From: Paraphysoderma sedebokerense
Lineage: Eukaryota; Blastocladiomycota; Physodermatomycetes; Physodermatales; Physodermataceae
Assembly (NCBI GenBank): GCA_025602915.1
Contig: JAHLJZ010000078.1
Location: 45,913-109,912, forward strand
Direction: 5' to 3'
Length of the DNA: 64,000 nucleotides
Shown piece after piece: positions 10,354 through 59,407 of this stretch. Below the pieces are notes generated by a model that saw nothing but the letters and a program-made list of their open reading frames with translations, was not told the origin of the DNA and made no database searches. A program made the position numbers and the translations under genes. Every line of letters starts with the position of its first letter. Position 1 is the first letter of the stretch.

Positions 10354-12152
10354 ATGATACGATGTGCTACTCATGCAGGGTCATGGTACCAAGATAAAGG
10401 TCCGCCTTAATTGTAACCCTATATCAAACGACTTAATACTGACTTGCAGTTTTCTTAATCTCATTGCTTCTTCCGTTCCTCTTTATCTTCTTTTTGGTGT
10501 CGTTTTTGTATATATTCTAAATTCAATTAGACAAAGTTTTGTCAAAGGAACTAGATGAATGGCTTTCGGATGTGACGAGTGTAGAGTACTTGGACGAAGA
10601 AGAAACTAGACCTCCAATTGCGAATGTTAAAGCGATTATTGCACCGTGAGTATTCTATATCTGAATGAGTTGTGGATAAGTGAATTCTGGAAAAATTGTC
10701 AGTCGAGGGAGTAGCAACGAATTAGTAGTTTCTACGAGGTGAAGGAGGAACTGTGTTCAGGTTATTGACTGACTTAACCCTTACTTTCGGAATTGTTTTC
10801 TTTTCGATTTTGCGTTGGTTTGAATTGGTTTACATTAGACATGCAGGATATTCTTATAGTGGTCGAGCCGCAGCCTTCGCTTATGCATGTGTCGATACTT
10901 CGAATATGTAAGTGGTCACTCCATTTCTTTTGATTTGTGATATTCTTCCGTTTTTACTCATTATGCTGTTATACCGAAATCGACGATACGAATTCATGAT
11001 CCACAAAATTTTCCGGCTAATCCATACGACGTACAGCGAACGAGTCTTTATTCTGGGTCCTTCACATCATTCTTATCTCACTGGTTGCGCTTTAACCGCA
11101 TGTTCAGTGTACGAAACACCATTGGGAGATCTCAAAGTTGATGAAGAAAGTAAGAAACACATTCGTTATTTCCTTCTTTTGGGAGTCTACGGCTGACTGG
11201 TTGTCTGATTGTAGCGATTGCCGAATTGAAAGAAAATGGTCGATTTGATACCATGTCACTCTCGGTGGACGAAGATGAACATAGTATTGAGATGCACCTT
11301 CCTTATATACACAAAATTATGTCCAGGTACGGTTAATTTTACTAATTTATTCTCTCATTAGCACCGCTAATTTACATTCACCTATCCCAAATGACCCGCA
11401 TTAGATCCAGGGGTGAAGACTTCTCTATCGTTCCTATTCTCGTAGGCGCCACATCTCCAGAAAAAGAAAAATACTATGCAGAGATACTATTACCCTACTT
11501 TTTAGATCCCACCAATTTATTCGTTATTTCCTCCGATTTCTGTCATTACGGTTCACGTTTTGGATTTTCTCCATTTTCATCATCCTCGTCATCTTCATTC
11601 TCCAGTTCTTCCAACTCGTCTTTAATCACCTCTACATTCCGTCAAACCAAATCTGACAACCGCAGTGACCATTCGAAATCAGAATCTCAGACTAAATCAA
11701 CCCCAATCTGGAAGCAAATCGAAAAATTAGATCACGAAGCTATCGAGATCATTGAAAATTTAGATACAAAAGGATTCTACAAGTACCTTAAACAAACTAA
11801 AAATACTATCTGTGGACGACACCCTATAGGCGTTTTACTCAATATTCTTGACCTCGCAAAAAGTGAATTGAAGAGTTCAAGTTCTGTTGGCTCTTCAGAT
11901 CAGGATAAAGTAAACGGGGAAAGTAGTACATCAATTCAAGACAAAGGAAACCCAAAGAAACGAAAAGCAGAAAGTGACGAAGGTGAGGAAAATGAAACAG
12001 ATCAAGAAGCTGAAGCTGGAGAAGTCAAACGGAATGAGGATTCGGATAAACAATTGTTTTTAAAGTTTACGCGGTACGAACAAAGTTCAAAATGTATGAA
12101 AAAGACGGATAGTTCAGTCAGCTATGCTAGTGCTTTTGTTTGTTTGATTTAA
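10354..12152 (+). CDS. MEMO1: MEMO1 family protein (complete copy)
   Basis: Homologue of animal MEMO1 and yeast Mho1, related to extradiol dioxygenases; animal MEMO1 binds metal and is tied to redox and cell-motility signalling. Exons are 10354-10399, 10531-10645, 10839-10907, 11037-11149, 11215-11326 and 11405-12152, giving 400 aa in frame. The N-terminus [12 protein letters not shown] matches the family start. The expected metal-site and Cys motifs are present: [29 protein letters not shown] and [10 protein letters not shown]. The C-terminus DSSVSYASA is also typical. It is about 100 residues longer than human MEMO1 because of a Ser-rich insert after [13 protein letters not shown] and an acidic Lys/Glu-rich insert before the last strand. 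The 26.4-kb repeat begins inside exon 4 of this gene. Confidence 0.93.
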
Positions 12153-21570: not shown

Positions 21571-24453
21571 ATGAATTGTAATGTCGTTGACGATGGTTTT
21601 GTTCTCTTTCATCCAAACAGTACTTTTACTTTGGCACTAATTCTCTGAATGGCCTCTGTTGTACTCGTACGATCGCAATCGGCGTTAGTGAATGACCCAA
21701 GGTAGGGTAGCTCGTAATTTAGAACATATGCTAATAATTTCATTTCGACTAAACAGTCGAAACTGACTTGATAATTTTTGGAAGTCCATATATACCCCCG
21801 TTGAGTCCATCCCCTTCGTCTACTACTGCTGACGAAAATGGACCCACTGTAACCACCTCCGAAGCCGCTCCAGCTAATGCTTCTTTCGAAGACATTGACG
21901 ACAGTTCTCTCCGTTTACTATTCGGCCAGGCCAATGAATTTAAAGAAGGCGACGCTACAATTAGTGTTGCCTCTGCATCAAATTCTCAACGAAGTGATGT
22001 CCGTCAACGGCTCTTGCGTCTCAGATTACATCAAATCATAAGTAGCCGCTTTTTGAATGATGAGGTTTCGGCGTTTCTAGAATCGTCGATAGATATTGAA
22101 ATTGCTAAAAAGTTGGCAACCTGGACATTAGCAGATCTAAAGAATTTCTTATTGACTGCTGATGAGGTTGAAATTAAAAGGATAATGCCAGGATTGGGTA
22201 GTGAAGTCATTGCCGGAGTTGCTAAACTCATGAGCAATGAAGAGTTGATACAAGTGAGCTCGAAGATTTATAACGAAGTTCCAGGTAGTACTCTCGGCAG
22301 AAAAGGATATTTTGGGAGCAGAATTCAACCAAATTCAGCTACCGATGATCCGGAAGAGGTCTTGATGAGTGTTTTGGAAGGCCTAAGTTATGGTTGTGGT
22401 GATGCCATATTCGGTGAGTTCAAACTGATTAATCAAAATCTGCTCCAAAGTATATTAACTTTGGCATTAAGGCATAAACATCGTTGCATCCGACCACCCA
22501 AATGTTACCGCTCTTCAACGAGTTTTGCGCGACGTGATTGACACTTTCCAAATCAACAACTCAACCCATTACTCTGTTTTAGCCCATATCGACGATCAAA
22601 TGGCTGTAGAGAATACTAATCCAGGCTTGACAGATGCCGCATTTCAGTCTATCGGTGGTACAGGTAAGTTTTGCTCCGTAACTTAGTCACCGCCAGATAT
22701 ATGTAACAAGAATGTTCATCGTTGATAGAGGGAGTGAATCGGGTTTTTAACATTAACATTGATAAACTCAAGTATCACCTTCAGAAAGTAAAAGCTCAAT
22801 ATTTTGAAACGGGACAGGGAAGTGCAGTGACAAATAATGTGAGTGGGGGTGTTGATATGGTGACATGTGAAGCCAGAGCTCACGGTATTGCAAGAGCTCT
22901 CAAAAATATCAATGGAAACTGGACGATAGTCAACACAGTTGGTAAGCCCAAGTTTGCTATCTGTGTTTAAACTGATTTTGACACCGAGAGTCTCCGACAG
23001 CTGGGTTTATCGGCCCTGAAGTTTTTCGATCGACAGATCAACTCTTGCGCGCTTGTCTTGAAGACCTATTTATGGGAAAGCTGCACGGTTTAGTTTTTGG
23101 TTTGGATGTCTGCAGTACTTATCACATGGGCGTTAATCTGGATGAGATTGGGCACATTCAAGACGAAGTCATGAGGTAAGAAGATGTGTTTTTGATCAGC
23201 CCGCCTGTTGAATTGAACTGATTTACCATGATTTTAGAGCGGGCCCGGCGTTCTATATGGCTGTCGCAGGTCGAAATGATCCAATGCTATCTTACCTCAC
23301 GACGGGCTTCCGCGATCATCCACGTCTTCGCCTAAAGCATAATAAACGGGTAACTGACGAAATGACGAAATTCTTCCAGGCAATCAATATTATGGACGAG
23401 AATGGTAATCTAACCTCACATGCCGGTGATACTGCCTATGTCTACGCGTTGTACAAGCAGCGTAAAGGCGATACGAGATCGCTTGAGACATTACAGGATG
23501 AAGCACGCACGATTTTGAAAAAACTACAAGGTCGAGGGTTAGACCTAGGTTATGGTCATGATGGTAACTTTAATCCTCCAAGAGAAGTACAGGAGAGATT
23601 GGAAAAAATTTACAATGATGCGAAGAAAGTGATTTATGAAAACTTAGCTTCCGAATTCATCGAATCATTCTCCAACAGATTGGTACTTCATACTGAAGCT
23701 GTGGATCGTGAACAATATCTCATTCATCCTTCTTCAGGAGAATCGATTTCAAGAGACTCAATGGTGAAACTGGAGGATTACCAGAGGGAATTGCAAAGAT
23801 TTATGGATTCATTGCCCGATGATACCCCAGTCGCGCAAATCGTGATTAGCGATGGATTAAATGCTCGCAGTATCGAGACCAATGGGCATTTACAACCATT
23901 ACTTCATCGATTGAAAGAGTTGCTTTCTGCTCGTGGTATTAAGGTTGCGGAGCGACCTATTATCGCTGTCAACGGACGGGTGCGAGCAGGGTACACAATT
24001 GGGAAAAAACTCTTCCACCCGAATCATACGATTGTATCTTCCCCACTTGCTGAAAAGAAATCAAAGACTGCATGGCTAAGGAACAAGATTGGCACAATCA
24101 GACGGTTCAACCGCAAGGTCGACACCTCAAACGGTTCGAGAAAATCGAAACGAAAATGCATCGTCCTCCATGCTGTCGGCGAAAGACCAGGAAACGGAAA
24201 TAACACATATAGTGTTTACATTTCTTGTGTCTCAGCCGATTCATGGAATCTTGTTGATCATAATGTTGTAGATGTAGTTTGTGGTATATCCAATACCGCA
24301 TTGAAACCAGAATTAGCAGCCGAACAGGTTGTCAAATTTATTGACAACAGGTTAAAAGTCGACGATGAGAAGGCTATTCTGAAGGAAAAGAAACCTGGGG
24401 AGCTGAGAATTATAAAAACCGTTGAAAATGCTAAAAAAGTGATTGAATCGTAA
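21571..24453 (+). CDS. Ethanolamine ammonia-lyase, fused large (EutB) and small (EutC) subunits
   Basis: Adenosylcobalamin-dependent enzyme converting ethanolamine to acetaldehyde and ammonia. Exons are 21571-21595 (tentative), 21757-22413, 22472-22663, 22729-22941, 23001-23175 and 23238-24453; all sum in frame (825 aa). EutB part: LFGQANEFKEGD, SRIQPN, EGLSYGCGDAIFG, YFETGQGSA, MVTCEARAHGIAR, GFIGPEVF and RNDPMLSY. Residues aligned with E. coli EutB Arg160, Gln162, Glu287 and Asp362 look conserved. EutC follows in the same last exon: QIVISDGLNARSIE, NGRVRAGYTIGKK and the cobalamin-site HAVGERPGNGN. So the fusion is seen directly, without a splice join. In E. coli the two are separate genes. 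The first exon (MNCNVVDD…) was chosen because no ATG opens the second exon in frame and phase-1 entry is needed. No peroxisomal C-terminal signal or microcompartment genes are seen. Confidence 0.92.
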
Positions 24454-30770: not shown

Positions 30771-32974
30771 CTATTTCTTCCTTAGTTCATTCTCCATTTC
30801 TTCAGTCACATCGTCCATTAAATCGTCACGAGGTTGAATCTTTGAATTGACGGTTGATGGCGGTTGTCCGTACCGAAATGACGAAATAGGTTCACCTCTT
30901 AAAATCTTGAAAGTGGATTCTCTCAGATTTGATTTGATTTTGGCCCACTTCGGAGAGACAAAAACGTGAGAATTATTAATGATTGCCATCGCTAATATAG
31001 GGAAACAGAAAAGACAGAACGGTTAGGAAAATGAAAATCGATGCTGTGGAGAGTAGAAGTTGTCAGATTATACGGGACAAAACTATACCTTCTTTCGGAC
31101 CCAGACTAACAAATTGAATAAGTGGAGTTTGCTGAGGCGCTTTCGTTCCCTTCTCGCCCTGGAGTAACGGATCTTTTCCTTTCTCGAGTCTGCATATGTT
31201 TCGAGCAATGGTCACTGCACTAATAAGGGCAGCGTACGCCGTTTTTTCTTCCTTGATTGTGGTCACGTCCCCTCCAGCTAAAATATTCGCGTGTCCAGGA
31301 AGTTGAAGGGAGGGAAGCACCTGAACATCATCCGTAATGGGCAAGTTAATTTATAGTCTATGAATGCAGGAAAAGGAATCGGAAATCCAAAAACTTACTT
31401 TTATTCGTTTTCGGTCATCAATGTAGGGCGCAAATCGCTCTTTCATGAATGATGACTGCGGTTGAGGTCCGGTAGCTAAATAAATCATGTCGAATTTGTA
31501 CAATCTACCACTTTTACTTTTGAAAACTCGTCTCGACTCATCGTACTGCGTGATGCGTTCATTGAGAATCACTTCAACCCCTAGCCCTTGAAGGTACTCT
31601 AGAGATCGTAGATGTGCTTTCTTGGTTAGCCGCTTTAATAAATAAGAGTTGGCTTCGACCAAGGTAATTTTCTTGTCTGGGAATGCGCAAGCTAATTCGG
31701 CGGCAATTTCAACACCAACACTCCCTATGATCACAGATAAATTAGCATCGAATCGTAGTAGGGCGGAAGACAAAGGAAGACCCACCTCCACCGACTATCA
31801 AAACATTTCGAGACTTGACCAATCTCTGATGTTCGTAACTGAGTTTCTTTGACCTATACGTACTTGATATATTTGCGGCTTTGATATGCGAGGCGTAGGT
31901 TGACCCAGTGGCGATTGCTAGATAATCGAATGGAATCTGTAGACATGATTGGCAAAAGAATTAATCAAAACTGACGATAGGCAGGTCACCGAACAGCGAA
32001 TTCAAACAACAAACCTCGACATTTCCCAGCGACACATGATGAGGAGTAACGGAATCTACATAACCCAAAACAAAATGGCCATTTTGAACGATTTCTGAGT
32101 GAGGTATTCGAATATTGTCCACGGTACTTGGATTCGGAATTTCTTTGACGACGGAGGGCTGACCGATCGAAGTTAGACAGTTAGCACATAGGCTTTGAGA
32201 ATATCATGTAATAGTTTAAATATACAAACAGTGTATTCGAAAAACGTTTTTGAGTCTATCAGGCAAACGTTGAACCGAGGCATCTTGTCTAATATACTAG
32301 CCAACAGGGCTCCGCAAAATCCGCCGCCAAGAACCACCACTCGCTTCTGGGAACTTTTCAAGGCCGGGATCAGCGTTCTAAAAAACAAAGGTGGATGTCG
32401 CCAATCAATGAAAACGCAGAAGCGTTGCCCACAATAGTACATTCACATACTCTGATGATTGTTTCATATAATCCCTGTAGAAAGTTTTGACTCGATTATT
32501 CAAGACCCCAATGATATGTTTCTCAGCCTCCTCAAAGATGGCGAAACTGTGCGGTTCAAAGACCTCCAACTCTTCGATTTCTGTCAGCAATCTCTTTCGT
32601 AGCGAGCTTGGTATATTGAGTTCCATGGGTGAGGAGGGAAGAAAGAATTCTTCGATCAGTTTTTGAATGTCATTTCGAATGGCGACAGGATCCGAGAGTT
32701 CGAGGCTGGAGCTCTTGACTTCCCGCAGGGTCTTTAGGAACACCAAATTCTCTTCGGCTGTTAAGGGGGGGGAGGGATATAAGTGTAAGGGTTAGTGATT
32801 CATGGTATTAGAGGCGAAAGGTTTTCCGAAAACGGCAATCCTGGGGGTAGGGGTGATCGGGGGGAGGGGAGTGATGGATTTACCTAGAGATTTTGACAGG
32901 TAGATTTGGAAATGATGCAGGAGGACTGGCTGGCGCAGAATCAGCTCGAAAGTTTGGTTGCCGACGCATGCCAT
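30771..32974 (-). CDS. RGS domain fused to FSP1/AIFM2-like NAD(P)H oxidoreductase
   Basis: Eight exons (32974-32884, 32757-32451, 32377-32230, 32158-32015, 31936-31786, 31724-31399, 31320-31089, 30991-30771) sum in frame to 539 aa. Residues 1 to about 133 resemble an RGS domain: QTFELILRQPVLLHHFQIYL, EENLVFLKTLREVK, ELNIPSSLRKRL, then FAIFEEAEKHI. The rest is a two-dinucleotide-domain flavoprotein like FSP1/AIFM2: RVVVLGGGFCGALLAS (FAD), DYLAIATGS, NVLIVGGGSVGVEIAAELA (NAD(P)H), MIYLATGPQP and ILAGGDVT. FSP1 reduces CoQ and protects membranes from lipid peroxidation. The RGS exon joins the FAD exon through a canonical GTATGT intron in phase 2 with no stop, which supports one protein. Two separate genes are less likely. 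Confidence 0.82.
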
Positions 32975-33439
32975 GGCAAGAACGAGAGGGAATGGATGAA
33001 AGAGAGGGAATGAAAGAGGGAATGGATGATGGAGGGAATGGATGAAAGAGAGGGAATGGATGAAAGAGGGAATGGAATTATGGAAGTGCAATGCCTTGTT
33101 TCATTGCCACGCGTGGTGAACCAGTGAACCCCTGTGAACAGGCACCCTCTCTCTGGCACGCGTGACCTGCACATGACTGCGCGTGACTGCACGTGACAGT
33201 GGAGAATTGCCGGCGGACAGAAGCAACAGAGCAGCATCCATTCCCTTCGTTCCCTCATCACATCCACCATCCACACCACATTCGCACTCTCTTTCCCCAT
33301 CCCCCGCAACAACCACCAACTCCCTCCCTCCCTCTCGCACCCCCCGCTCTTCCGCTTCACCCCCCCCTCCCTTCCCCCTCCCATCAATGTCACTGTCCTC
33401 AACTCATCCCTCCTCATCGCTAACATTCGCTCCACAATC
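32975..33439. promoter_or_regulatory. Divergent intergenic region, RGS-FSP1 / CCR4
   Basis: 465 bp between divergent start codons. Left part: a GGGAATGGATGAAAGA-like minisatellite (listed separately). Middle: several ACGCGTG/GCGTGAC/CACGTGAC-like motifs (33110-33197). Right part: a strong C/T tract on the plus strand (about 33285-33395), which may act as an initiator or 5' UTR region for CCR4. Confidence 0.45.
32984..33076. repeat. Short purine-rich minisatellite
   Basis: Imperfect tandem copies of a unit near GAGGGAATGGATGAAAGA, about five or six times. It sits just upstream of the RGS-FSP1 start codon. On the minus strand it reads as an open frame of Ile/Pro/Ser/His repeats, which I do not take as coding. 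Confidence 0.8.
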
Positions 33440-37127: not shown

Positions 37128-37662
37128 ATGACGTCCATCCTTCCCTCTTTCTCCTCCCTCTCACCCTCCGCCGCCCTCCCCACTCCCACTATCCTCAACT
37201 TCTTTACCTCCCGTATCCTCCAATTCCTGGTGCGTCCCCTCTACTTTTGTTCCATCAAATTCTAACCCCCTCCCCACACAACTACACCCCCTTGTCTTAC
37301 TTGTCTCACCGCCCCACATCCTCGTAGACACAACTAACAAATTTGTTATCTCTGATGATGCATTCATTCTAATAGGTATTCCAAGCTATCATTGTCAATC
37401 GAATAAGGGAGGTAGCATCTCCCCGACGAGCTCATCGAATATCGAAATTATCACATTGTATCATCCGTATTCCATTGATAATATTACTCTCTATCAATGT
37501 CTACCATTTATATCACTTGATTACCAATGAAACCGGGGTCAACCCGGCCGCTAAATTTCAAGATACAAAGTTGATGAAGAAAGTAAGAAACACATTCGTT
37601 ATTTCCTTCTTTTGGGAGTCTACGGCTGACTGGTTGTCTGATTGTAGCGATTGCCGAATTGA
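37128..37662 (+). CDS. Unrecognised gene, 5' part, chimeric across the repeat junction
   Basis: ATG at 37128 opens [21 protein letters not shown] likely intron at 37231-37374 (GTGCGT…TAATAG, with CTAAC near 37335) joins in phase 0 to an exon reading [17 protein letters not shown], then a hydrophobic segment [17 protein letters not shown] and TGVNPAAKF. It suggests a small membrane or mitochondrial protein, family unknown. At 37566 the sequence becomes MEMO1 exon 4 in the wrong frame; if spliced like MEMO1 (37582 to 37648) the chimera ends at TGA 37660-37662. The true 3' part of this gene is not in the window. Confidence 0.45.
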
Positions 37663-38585
37663 AAGAAAATGGTCGATTTGATACCATGTCACTCTCGGTG
37701 GACGAAGATGAACATAGTATTGAGATGCACCTTCCTTATATACACAAAATTATGTCCAGGTACGGTTAATTTTACTAATTTATTCTCTCATTAGCACCGC
37801 TAATTTACATTCACCTATCCCAAATGACCCGCATTAGATCCAGGGGTGAAGACTTCTCTATCGTTCCTATTCTCGTAGGCGCCACATCTCCAGAAAAAGA
37901 AAAATACTATGCAGAGATACTATTACCCTACTTTTTAGATCCCACCAATTTATTCGTTATTTCCTCCGATTTCTGTCATTACGGTTCACGTTTTGGATTT
38001 TCTCCATTTTCATCATCCTCGTCATCTTCATTCTCCAGTTCTTCCAACTCGTCTTTAATCACCTCTACATTCCGTCAAACCAAATCTGACAACCGCAGTG
38101 ACCATTCGAAATCAGAATCTCAGACTAAATCAACCCCAATCTGGAAGCAAATCGAAAAATTAGATCACGAAGCTATCGAGATCATTGAAAATTTAGATAC
38201 AAAAGGATTCTACAAGTACCTTAAACAAACTAAAAATACTATCTGTGGACGACACCCTATAGGCGTTTTACTCAATATTCTTGACCTCGCAAAAAGTGAA
38301 TTGAAGAGTTCAAGTTCTGTTGGCTCTTCAGATCAGGATAAAGTAAACGGGGAAAGTAGTACATCAATTCAAGACAAAGGAAACCCAAAGAAACGAAAAG
38401 CAGAAAGTGACGAAGGTGAGGAAAATGAAACAGATCAAGAAGCTGAAGCTGGAGAAGTCAAACGGAATGAGGATTCGGATAAACAATTGTTTTTAAAGTT
38501 TACGCGGTACGAACAAAGTTCAAAATGTATGAAAAAGACGGATAGTTCAGTCAGCTATGCTAGTGCTTTTGTTTGTTTGATTTAA
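37566..38585 (+). pseudogene. MEMO1: MEMO1, 5'-truncated copy
   Basis: Holds the last 17 nt of exon 4 (to 37582), exon 5 (37648-37759) and exon 6 (37838-38585). Exons 1-3 and most of exon 4, with the first two His motifs (APHAGY, GPSHH), are missing. The upstream gene runs into it out of frame, so no MEMO1 protein is expected from here unless translation restarts internally. Confidence 0.9.
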
Positions 38586-48003: not shown

Positions 48004-50886
48004 ATGAATTGTAATGTCGTTGACGATGGTTTTGTTCTCTTTCATCCAAACAGTACTTTTACTTTGGCACTAATTCTCTGAATGGCCTCTGTTGTACTCG
48101 TACGATCGCAATCGGCGTTAGTGAATGACCCAAGGTAGGGTAGCTCGTAATTTAGAACATATGCTAATAATTTCATTTCGACTAAACAGTCGAAACTGAC
48201 TTGATAATTTTTGGAAGTCCATATATACCCCCGTTGAGTCCATCCCCTTCGTCTACTACTGCTGACGAAAATGGACCCACTGTAACCACCTCCGAAGCCG
48301 CTCCAGCTAATGCTTCTTTCGAAGACATTGACGACAGTTCTCTCCGTTTACTATTCGGCCAGGCCAATGAATTTAAAGAAGGCGACGCTACAATTAGTGT
48401 TGCCTCTGCATCAAATTCTCAACGAAGTGATGTCCGTCAACGGCTCTTGCGTCTCAGATTACATCAAATCATAAGTAGCCGCTTTTTGAATGATGAGGTT
48501 TCGGCGTTTCTAGAATCGTCGATAGATATTGAAATTGCTAAAAAGTTGGCAACCTGGACATTAGCAGATCTAAAGAATTTCTTATTGACTGCTGATGAGG
48601 TTGAAATTAAAAGGATAATGCCAGGATTGGGTAGTGAAGTCATTGCCGGAGTTGCTAAACTCATGAGCAATGAAGAGTTGATACAAGTGAGCTCGAAGAT
48701 TTATAACGAAGTTCCAGGTAGTACTCTCGGCAGAAAAGGATATTTTGGGAGCAGAATTCAACCAAATTCAGCTACCGATGATCCGGAAGAGGTCTTGATG
48801 AGTGTTTTGGAAGGCCTAAGTTATGGTTGTGGTGATGCCATATTCGGTGAGTTCAAACTGATTAATCAAAATCTGCTCCAAAGTATATTAACTTTGGCAT
48901 TAAGGCATAAACATCGTTGCATCCGACCACCCAAATGTTACCGCTCTTCAACGAGTTTTGCGCGACGTGATTGACACTTTCCAAATCAACAACTCAACCC
49001 ATTACTCTGTTTTAGCCCATATCGACGATCAAATGGCTGTAGAGAATACTAATCCAGGCTTGACAGATGCCGCATTTCAGTCTATCGGTGGTACAGGTAA
49101 GTTTTGCTCCGTAACTTAGTCACCGCCAGATATATGTAACAAGAATGTTCATCGTTGATAGAGGGAGTGAATCGGGTTTTTAACATTAACATTGATAAAC
49201 TCAAGTATCACCTTCAGAAAGTAAAAGCTCAATATTTTGAAACGGGACAGGGAAGTGCAGTGACAAATAATGTGAGTGGGGGTGTTGATATGGTGACATG
49301 TGAAGCCAGAGCTCACGGTATTGCAAGAGCTCTCAAAAATATCAATGGAAACTGGACGATAGTCAACACAGTTGGTAAGCCCAAGTTTGCTATCTGTGTT
49401 TAAACTGATTTTGACACCGAGAGTCTCCGACAGCTGGGTTTATCGGCCCTGAAGTTTTTCGATCGACAGATCAACTCTTGCGCGCTTGTCTTGAAGACCT
49501 ATTTATGGGAAAGCTGCACGGTTTAGTTTTTGGTTTGGATGTCTGCAGTACTTATCACATGGGCGTTAATCTGGATGAGATTGGGCACATTCAAGACGAA
49601 GTCATGAGGTAAGAAGATGTGTTTTTGATCAGCCCGCCTGTTGAATTGAACTGATTTACCATGATTTTAGAGCGGGCCCGGCGTTCTATATGGCTGTCGC
49701 AGGTCGAAATGATCCAATGCTATCTTACCTCACGACGGGCTTCCGCGATCATCCACGTCTTCGCCTAAAGCATAATAAACGGGTAACTGACGAAATGACG
49801 AAATTCTTCCAGGCAATCAATATTATGGACGAGAATGGTAATCTAACCTCACATGCCGGTGATACTGCCTATGTCTACGCGTTGTACAAGCAGCGTAAAG
49901 GCGATACGAGATCGCTTGAGACATTACAGGATGAAGCACGCACGATTTTGAAAAAACTACAAGGTCGAGGGTTAGACCTAGGTTATGGTCATGATGGTAA
50001 CTTTAATCCTCCAAGAGAAGTACAGGAGAGATTGGAAAAAATTTACAATGATGCGAAGAAAGTGATTTATGAAAACTTAGCTTCCGAATTCATCGAATCA
50101 TTCTCCAACAGATTGGTACTTCATACTGAAGCTGTGGATCGTGAACAATATCTCATTCATCCTTCTTCAGGAGAATCGATTTCAAGAGACTCAATGGTGA
50201 AACTGGAGGATTACCAGAGGGAATTGCAAAGATTTATGGATTCATTGCCCGATGATACCCCAGTCGCGCAAATCGTGATTAGCGATGGATTAAATGCTCG
50301 CAGTATCGAGACCAATGGGCATTTACAACCATTACTTCATCGATTGAAAGAGTTGCTTTCTGCTCGTGGTATTAAGGTTGCGGAGCGACCTATTATCGCT
50401 GTCAACGGACGGGTGCGAGCAGGGTACACAATTGGGAAAAAACTCTTCCACCCGAATCATACGATTGTATCTTCCCCACTTGCTGAAAAGAAATCAAAGA
50501 CTGCATGGCTAAGGAACAAGATTGGCACAATCAGACGGTTCAACCGCAAGGTCGACACCTCAAACGGTTCGAGAAAATCGAAACGAAAATGCATCGTCCT
50601 CCATGCTGTCGGCGAAAGACCAGGAAACGGAAATAACACATATAGTGTTTACATTTCTTGTGTCTCAGCCGATTCATGGAATCTTGTTGATCATAATGTT
50701 GTAGATGTAGTTTGTGGTATATCCAATACCGCATTGAAACCAGAATTAGCAGCCGAACAGGTTGTCAAATTTATTGACAACAGGTTAAAAGTCGACGATG
50801 AGAAGGCTATTCTGAAGGAAAAGAAACCTGGGGAGCTGAGAATTATAAAAACCGTTGAAAATGCTAAAAAAGTGATTGAATCGTAA
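48004..50886 (+). CDS. Fused EutB-EutC ethanolamine ammonia-lyase (copy B)
   Basis: Identical to 21571-24453. The last exon (49671-50886) again carries the EutB C-terminus and the whole EutC part in one open frame. The first exon (48004-48028) is tentative as in copy A. Confidence 0.9.
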
Positions 50887-57203: not shown

Positions 57204-59407
57204 CTATTTCTTCCTTAGTTCATTCTCCATTTCTTCAGTCACATCGTCCATTAAATCGTCACGAGGTTGAATCTTTGAATTGACGGTTGATGGCGGTTGT
57301 CCGTACCGAAATGACGAAATAGGTTCACCTCTTAAAATCTTGAAAGTGGATTCTCTCAGATTTGATTTGATTTTGGCCCACTTCGGAGAGACAAAAACGT
57401 GAGAATTATTAATGATTGCCATCGCTAATATAGGGAAACAGAAAAGACAGAACGGTTAGGAAAATGAAAATCGATGCTGTGGAGAGTAGAAGTTGTCAGA
57501 TTATACGGGACAAAACTATACCTTCTTTCGGACCCAGACTAACAAATTGAATAAGTGGAGTTTGCTGAGGCGCTTTCGTTCCCTTCTCGCCCTGGAGTAA
57601 CGGATCTTTTCCTTTCTCGAGTCTGCATATGTTTCGAGCAATGGTCACTGCACTAATAAGGGCAGCGTACGCCGTTTTTTCTTCCTTGATTGTGGTCACG
57701 TCCCCTCCAGCTAAAATATTCGCGTGTCCAGGAAGTTGAAGGGAGGGAAGCACCTGAACATCATCCGTAATGGGCAAGTTAATTTATAGTCTATGAATGC
57801 AGGAAAAGGAATCGGAAATCCAAAAACTTACTTTTATTCGTTTTCGGTCATCAATGTAGGGCGCAAATCGCTCTTTCATGAATGATGACTGCGGTTGAGG
57901 TCCGGTAGCTAAATAAATCATGTCGAATTTGTACAATCTACCACTTTTACTTTTGAAAACTCGTCTCGACTCATCGTACTGCGTGATGCGTTCATTGAGA
58001 ATCACTTCAACCCCTAGCCCTTGAAGGTACTCTAGAGATCGTAGATGTGCTTTCTTGGTTAGCCGCTTTAATAAATAAGAGTTGGCTTCGACCAAGGTAA
58101 TTTTCTTGTCTGGGAATGCGCAAGCTAATTCGGCGGCAATTTCAACACCAACACTCCCTATGATCACAGATAAATTAGCATCGAATCGTAGTAGGGCGGA
58201 AGACAAAGGAAGACCCACCTCCACCGACTATCAAAACATTTCGAGACTTGACCAATCTCTGATGTTCGTAACTGAGTTTCTTTGACCTATACGTACTTGA
58301 TATATTTGCGGCTTTGATATGCGAGGCGTAGGTTGACCCAGTGGCGATTGCTAGATAATCGAATGGAATCTGTAGACATGATTGGCAAAAGAATTAATCA
58401 AAACTGACGATAGGCAGGTCACCGAACAGCGAATTCAAACAACAAACCTCGACATTTCCCAGCGACACATGATGAGGAGTAACGGAATCTACATAACCCA
58501 AAACAAAATGGCCATTTTGAACGATTTCTGAGTGAGGTATTCGAATATTGTCCACGGTACTTGGATTCGGAATTTCTTTGACGACGGAGGGCTGACCGAT
58601 CGAAGTTAGACAGTTAGCACATAGGCTTTGAGAATATCATGTAATAGTTTAAATATACAAACAGTGTATTCGAAAAACGTTTTTGAGTCTATCAGGCAAA
58701 CGTTGAACCGAGGCATCTTGTCTAATATACTAGCCAACAGGGCTCCGCAAAATCCGCCGCCAAGAACCACCACTCGCTTCTGGGAACTTTTCAAGGCCGG
58801 GATCAGCGTTCTAAAAAACAAAGGTGGATGTCGCCAATCAATGAAAACGCAGAAGCGTTGCCCACAATAGTACATTCACATACTCTGATGATTGTTTCAT
58901 ATAATCCCTGTAGAAAGTTTTGACTCGATTATTCAAGACCCCAATGATATGTTTCTCAGCCTCCTCAAAGATGGCGAAACTGTGCGGTTCAAAGACCTCC
59001 AACTCTTCGATTTCTGTCAGCAATCTCTTTCGTAGCGAGCTTGGTATATTGAGTTCCATGGGTGAGGAGGGAAGAAAGAATTCTTCGATCAGTTTTTGAA
59101 TGTCATTTCGAATGGCGACAGGATCCGAGAGTTCGAGGCTGGAGCTCTTGACTTCCCGCAGGGTCTTTAGGAACACCAAATTCTCTTCGGCTGTTAAGGG
59201 GGGGGAGGGATATAAGTGTAAGGGTTAGTGATTCATGGTATTAGAGGCGAAAGGTTTTCCGAAAACGGCAATCCTGGGGGTAGGGGTGATCGGGGGGAGG
59301 GGAGTGATGGATTTACCTAGAGATTTTGACAGGTAGATTTGGAAATGATGCAGGAGGACTGGCTGGCGCAGAATCAGCTCGAAAGTTTGGTTGCCGACGC
59401 ATGCCAT
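57204..59407 (-). CDS. RGS-FSP1/AIFM2-like fusion (copy B)
   Basis: Identical to 30771-32974: eight exons, 539 aa, N-terminal RGS-like domain joined through a phase-2 intron to the flavoprotein part. Intact. Confidence 0.8.

Follow-up and report, generated by a model that had tools for sequence, protein, structure and literature searches.

A gene on the reverse strand of a 64,000-nucleotide stretch of Paraphysoderma sedebokerense DNA (the window) joins an RGS domain to an FSP1/AIFM2-like flavin oxidoreductase in a single spliceable reading frame, and is very probably one fused reading unit. The predicted architecture, an N-terminal RGS domain followed by a linker of about 15-25 residues and then the oxidoreductase, might allow a quinone-reducing enzyme to be positioned or regulated by G-protein signalling. 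We read the protein as a putative Gα-docked NADH:quinone-type oxidoreductase in which the RGS domain would replace the lipid anchor of FSP1, at a probability of roughly 45%.

Independent splicing and translation of the coding gene (30771..32974, reverse strand) gives eight exons that sum to 1620 nt in a single frame and encode 539 aa plus a stop. The eight exons in one frame described in the first-pass annotation are thus recovered, and profile searches together with the splice anatomy confirm its claim that an RGS domain and an FSP1/AIFM2-like oxidoreductase share that frame. All seven introns run from GT to AG, with lengths of 126, 73, 71, 78, 61, 78 and 97 nt. The features are as follows:

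32884..32974, reverse strand: exon 1, carrying the start codon and the beginning of the RGS domain (residues 1-30)
32451..32757, reverse strand: exon 2, bulk of the RGS domain
32378..32450, reverse strand: border intron between the domains, 73 nt, GTATGT...TTTTTTAG, phase 2, no internal AG
32230..32377, reverse strand: exon 3, remaining linker and FAD-binding GGGFCG motif (residues 150-155)
32015..32158, reverse strand: exon 4, FAD-binding domain
31786..31936, reverse strand: exon 5, FAD domain as far as the beginning of the NAD(P)H motif
31399..31724, reverse strand: exon 6, NAD(P)H-binding domain
31089..31320, reverse strand: exon 7, GD motif (D407), K415, Y418 and the beginning of the C-terminal domain; with an alternative donor it ends at 31074
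30771..30991, reverse strand: exon 8, remainder of the divergent C-terminal domain, then a charged tail
57204..59407, reverse strand: second, identical copy of the fusion gene, within a 26,433-bp tandem repeat

The GGGSVGVE motif (residues 279-286) crosses the exon 5/6 junction. The exon-1 frame has no ATG upstream of 32974 as far back as the preceding stop. CT-rich CCATTCCCTCTTTCAT-type repeats lie at 32980-33090, immediately 5' of the start codon.

In the 539-aa product, the Pfam RGS profile matches residues 9-119 (E 1.7e-11, 45 bits; curated cut-off 23.9). An RGS profile match within residues 1-133, the absence of which would by the first-pass annotation have refuted its reading, is obtained when that part is searched alone (E 2.2e-12, 47.8 bits vs the cut-off of 23.9), and the unspliced translation of exon 2 also exceeds the cut-off of 23.9 by itself (E 4e-07, 30.9 bits). 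A single-sequence search of the RGS part against PDB sequences gives weak matches, the best of them to RGS7 (E 0.0026); 27 of the 29 matches listed up to E 1 are RGS-domain chains and two are beta-lactamases, and the chain of EhRGS-RhoGEF (PDB 4GOU) is among those listed. No NCBIfam family was found for the RGS part. An AlphaFold model of exon 2 alone, computed from the single sequence with no alignment, has four helices at a mean pLDDT of 52.8, which is too poor to use. To map residues, the protein was aligned by MAFFT to five RGS sequences from the PDB, of which two are incomplete. The RGS4 residues N88 and N128, the asparagines that touch and stabilise the Gα switch regions, are kept as N34 and N78, whereas E83, D163 and R167 correspond to S29, R119 and D126; the protein also differs from RGS4 and RGS7 in small insertions and in the attached oxidoreductase. 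D163 and R167 are presumably Gα-contact residues, and their mapping could shift by a few residues, as gaps of 6, 3 and 2 residues fall near the last helices. By this alignment, two or three of the Gα-contact residues are missing from the RGS part, and GAP activity on Gα is possible.

The enzyme part is probably an FAD- and NAD(P)H-dependent, quinone-reducing oxidoreductase. Pfam Pyr_redox_2 matches residues 145-418 (E 1.7e-29, 103.6 bits), and a phmmer search against solved structures returns FSP1/AIFM2 for all six best distinct sequences (E 7.5e-27 to 1.4e-22; PDB 8WIK, 8JSC and 7XPI among the FSP1/AIFM2 structures compared), two of which are reconstructed ancestors. The next matches are CoA-disulphide reductases, from E 6.4e-11. 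Among NCBIfam families, the 25 listed of 63 all score below their curated cut-offs. Both Rossmann domains are present, and so, by the motif definitions of PMC10643123, are the GxGxxGxE motif (GGGSVGVE), the GD motif (GGD) and the WxxG glycine (G244 in human FSP1). Identity to human FSP1 is 100 of 346 aligned residues for the 539-aa model and 101 of 339 if the alternative exon 7 is used. Residues predicted to serve FAD, NADH and part of the quinone site are retained: human D41, K118, E156, D285, K293, A295 and Y296 are all kept, with E156 and D285 corresponding to E286 and D407. FSP1 G22, N49, A153, H174, S175 and Q176 are replaced by C154, T182, V283, E304, A305 and N306, of which the loss of N49 and H174 sets this enzyme apart from FSP1, and D181 falls in an alignment gap. 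An acid in place of human H174 is usually a sign of NADH preference. The label ‘FSP1-like’ used in the first-pass annotation is justified; it does not by itself imply ferroptosis suppression. The link between Gα signalling and membrane redox or lipid-peroxidation defence that the first-pass annotation drew is putative, and the chemistry behind it is less clear than was implied there.

The C-terminal domain is the least sure part of this likeness. In FSP1, residues 319-373, a domain of about 55 residues with a two-strand hairpin, form the unit of the dimer and the quinone pocket (PMC10516921); human FSP1 is held to act as a monomer, E156 is bound to K355, which contacts the flavin, and Y296 and F360 clamp the quinone (PMC10896247). 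In the phmmer search, the alignment to FSP1 runs out at human residue 314, short of this domain, and the last 112 residues searched alone return no FSP1 match. Intron 7 has two in-frame donors, at 31088 and 31073 (reverse strand), 15 nt apart; use of the second ends exon 7 at 31074 and gives 544 aa, with five additional residues in the quinone-pocket region. In MAFFT alignments in which human FSP1 residues 315-320 (six) were entered as X, the 539-aa model places K484 at K355 and L489 at F360 with one gap position in the hairpin, and the 544-aa model places F482 at F360, W487 at W365 and N478 at K355 with eight gap positions there. We lean, by judgement, towards the alternative donor. In either model the C-terminal domain diverges from that of FSP1, and in the alternative splice model it is about 8 residues shorter than in FSP1; the charged tail is likewise extra to the FSP1 plan. 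A micro-exon in intron 7 that would lengthen the C-terminal hairpin was rejected by eye, since the intron left over would measure about 30 nt.

The joining of the two domains turns on the border intron (32450-32378), which has the canonical form that the first-pass annotation ascribed to it: a GTATGT donor, an AG acceptor following TTTGTTTTTT with no AG ahead of it, and a length of 73 nt. Its removal links 32451 to 32377, in phase 2. Because 73 is 1 modulo 3, retention shifts the frame, and a further 14 codons lead to a stop. A chain that retains the intron thus ends at 147 aa, so the fusion depends on splicing here, which we infer to take place in vivo. As a rough control, intron-like sites were counted with a strict pattern (a GTATGT or GTAAGT donor, the first AG 55-130 nt downstream, and pyrimidines at 8 or more of the 10 positions preceding that AG) that was framed after the border intron had been seen and to which several of the gene's other introns do not conform. 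In 2 x 37,565 bases the strict pattern is found twice, whereas 20 first-order random sequences average 0.1 and never exceed 1; with a looser donor there are seven sites in the same span, and the random set averages 2.4 with at most 6. The counts are totals over all sites; by its letters, the border intron fits the strict pattern.

It is unlikely that the locus makes two products instead, with intron retention giving a 147-aa RGS-only protein and a transcript from the ATG at 32442 giving the oxidoreductase alone. That reading draws on the 14 codons and stop that retention places after the RGS domain, and on the position of this ATG, inside the intron and in the exon-3 frame with no stop downstream; but the donor and acceptor of the border intron are by eye among the best of the seven, and a chain started at 32442 reads MYYCGQ, with no myristoylation glycine at position 2. 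Separate genes would also need to overlap: the RGS exon ends only about 107 nt short of the first FAD-domain strand, which is too little to accommodate separate gene ends. An artefact of assembly or gene prediction is a very improbable source of the fusion. The gene does lie inside a tandem direct repeat with a period of 26,433 bp (11133-37565 and 37566-63998, reaching the window end) whose copies show 0 differences in 26,435 aligned bases, and such repeats can be assembly artefacts; however, the repeat junction (37565/37566) is 4.6 kb from the gene, so the fusion itself is untouched by it, and the window contains no N. The perfect identity of the copies reflects either a very recent segmental duplication or an assembly error, and the second copy of the gene is no independent evidence for the fusion.

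Each of ten ORFs chosen from the window is matched by a Pfam family at an E-value of 1e-5 or lower: myosin head, kinesin, Memo, cyclin, ion channel, Lyase_1, EutB-EutC, FAA hydrolase, LRR and Exo_endo_phos. With the short introns, this content is in keeping with a eukaryote, probably a fungus. The Lyase_1 enzyme is presumably an argininosuccinate lyase, and the LRR and exo/endonuclease pair, upstream of the fusion gene on the opposite strand, looks to us like CCR4. The repeat starts inside ORF 10912-11193, by eye the 5' part of a Memo gene whose Pfam match lies in the next ORF (11346-12149); if ORF 10912-11193 belongs to Memo, the second Memo copy (37566-38582) is without its 5' part. ORF 23212-24450 (copy at 49645-50883) reads from the end of EutB, the large subunit of ethanolamine ammonia-lyase, into EutC, the small subunit, and so is a fused EutBC in a eukaryote. 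Ethanolamine ammonia-lyase is a B12 enzyme.

The fused protein has no FSP1 myristoylation motif, because its enzyme part starts inside the chain and the chain itself begins MACVGN. Since that motif is lacking, we propose the RGS domain as the membrane address, via activated Gα: it would most likely stand in for the N-terminal lipid anchor of FSP1 and, through the predicted Gα binding, dock the enzyme on an activated, membrane-bound Gα subunit. A quinone or related acceptor would then be reduced at membrane sites of G-protein activity. The RGS domain may, in addition, accelerate GTP hydrolysis, and the docking would then be self-limiting. As reported in PMC10643123, FSP1 with the G2A change, which is defective in myristoylation, no longer suppresses ferroptosis, and Lyn11, a foreign N-terminal membrane tag, restores function to this unmyristoylated form; by that rescue, the FSP1 anchor is exchangeable.

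A serious rival, possible though at clearly less than even odds, is that the RGS domain serves just for protein binding or localization, without GAP activity, on an otherwise normal redox enzyme. The changed D163 and R167 positions and the three gaps near the last helices are in keeping with such a docking-only role, as is the reuse of RGS-homology domains in the fusions of the GRKs (PMC3307776), but the retained N88 and N128, which in RGS4 are switch-region contacts, argue against it. The functions could also be coupled in the opposite sense, with an NADH-dependent flavoprotein that uses an acceptor other than CoQ and whose flavin redox state regulates the RGS part, making the protein a redox sensor. 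The divergent C-terminal domain, the uncertain equivalent of K355 and the acidic E304 at the position of human H174, with the NADH preference that such an acid usually signals, are consistent with this; the quinone-clamp residue Y296 is conserved, however, as is F360 in the alternative splice model, and we consider such a sensor quite improbable. Docking of the oxidoreductase on Gα through its RGS domain is the reading that we prefer.

Precedents exist for an RGS-type domain and an effector enzyme in one chain, as is predicted here. Both the GRKs, which combine an RGS-homology domain with a kinase, and EhRGS-RhoGEF have this plan, whereas the enzyme here is a flavin oxidoreductase and not a kinase or a GEF. 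GRKs arose through insertion of a kinase into an RGS domain (PMC3307776); in them the kinase sits within the RGS domain, whereas here the enzyme follows it. Among the papers listed, no RGS-oxidoreductase fusion appears in titles and the beginnings of abstracts, which is a weak test. We know of no described fusion of an RGS domain with a flavin oxidoreductase. A search of the full protein against viral contigs matched a pattern in 6 stretches and confirmed 0 of them; for the enzyme part against prokaryote and viral contigs, 0 of 29 stretches were confirmed. A single sequence reaches only close relatives, and neither result bears on the distribution of the fusion.

RGS-enzyme fusions are known for kinases and RhoGEFs, and the union of an RGS domain with a quinone-type flavoprotein would physically link heterotrimeric G-protein signalling with membrane redox directly. 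The protein would be a testable FSP1-like enzyme with a signal-dependent membrane address instead of a fixed lipid. More tentatively, it may represent an undescribed class of G-protein effector, a Gα-recruited NADH:quinone oxidoreductase through which a receptor signal would directly move or switch a membrane antioxidant enzyme, or in which the redox state of the cell would set the lifetime of active Gα. Confined to one species, the fusion would be a curiosity; kept across a lineage, it would be a real signalling design.
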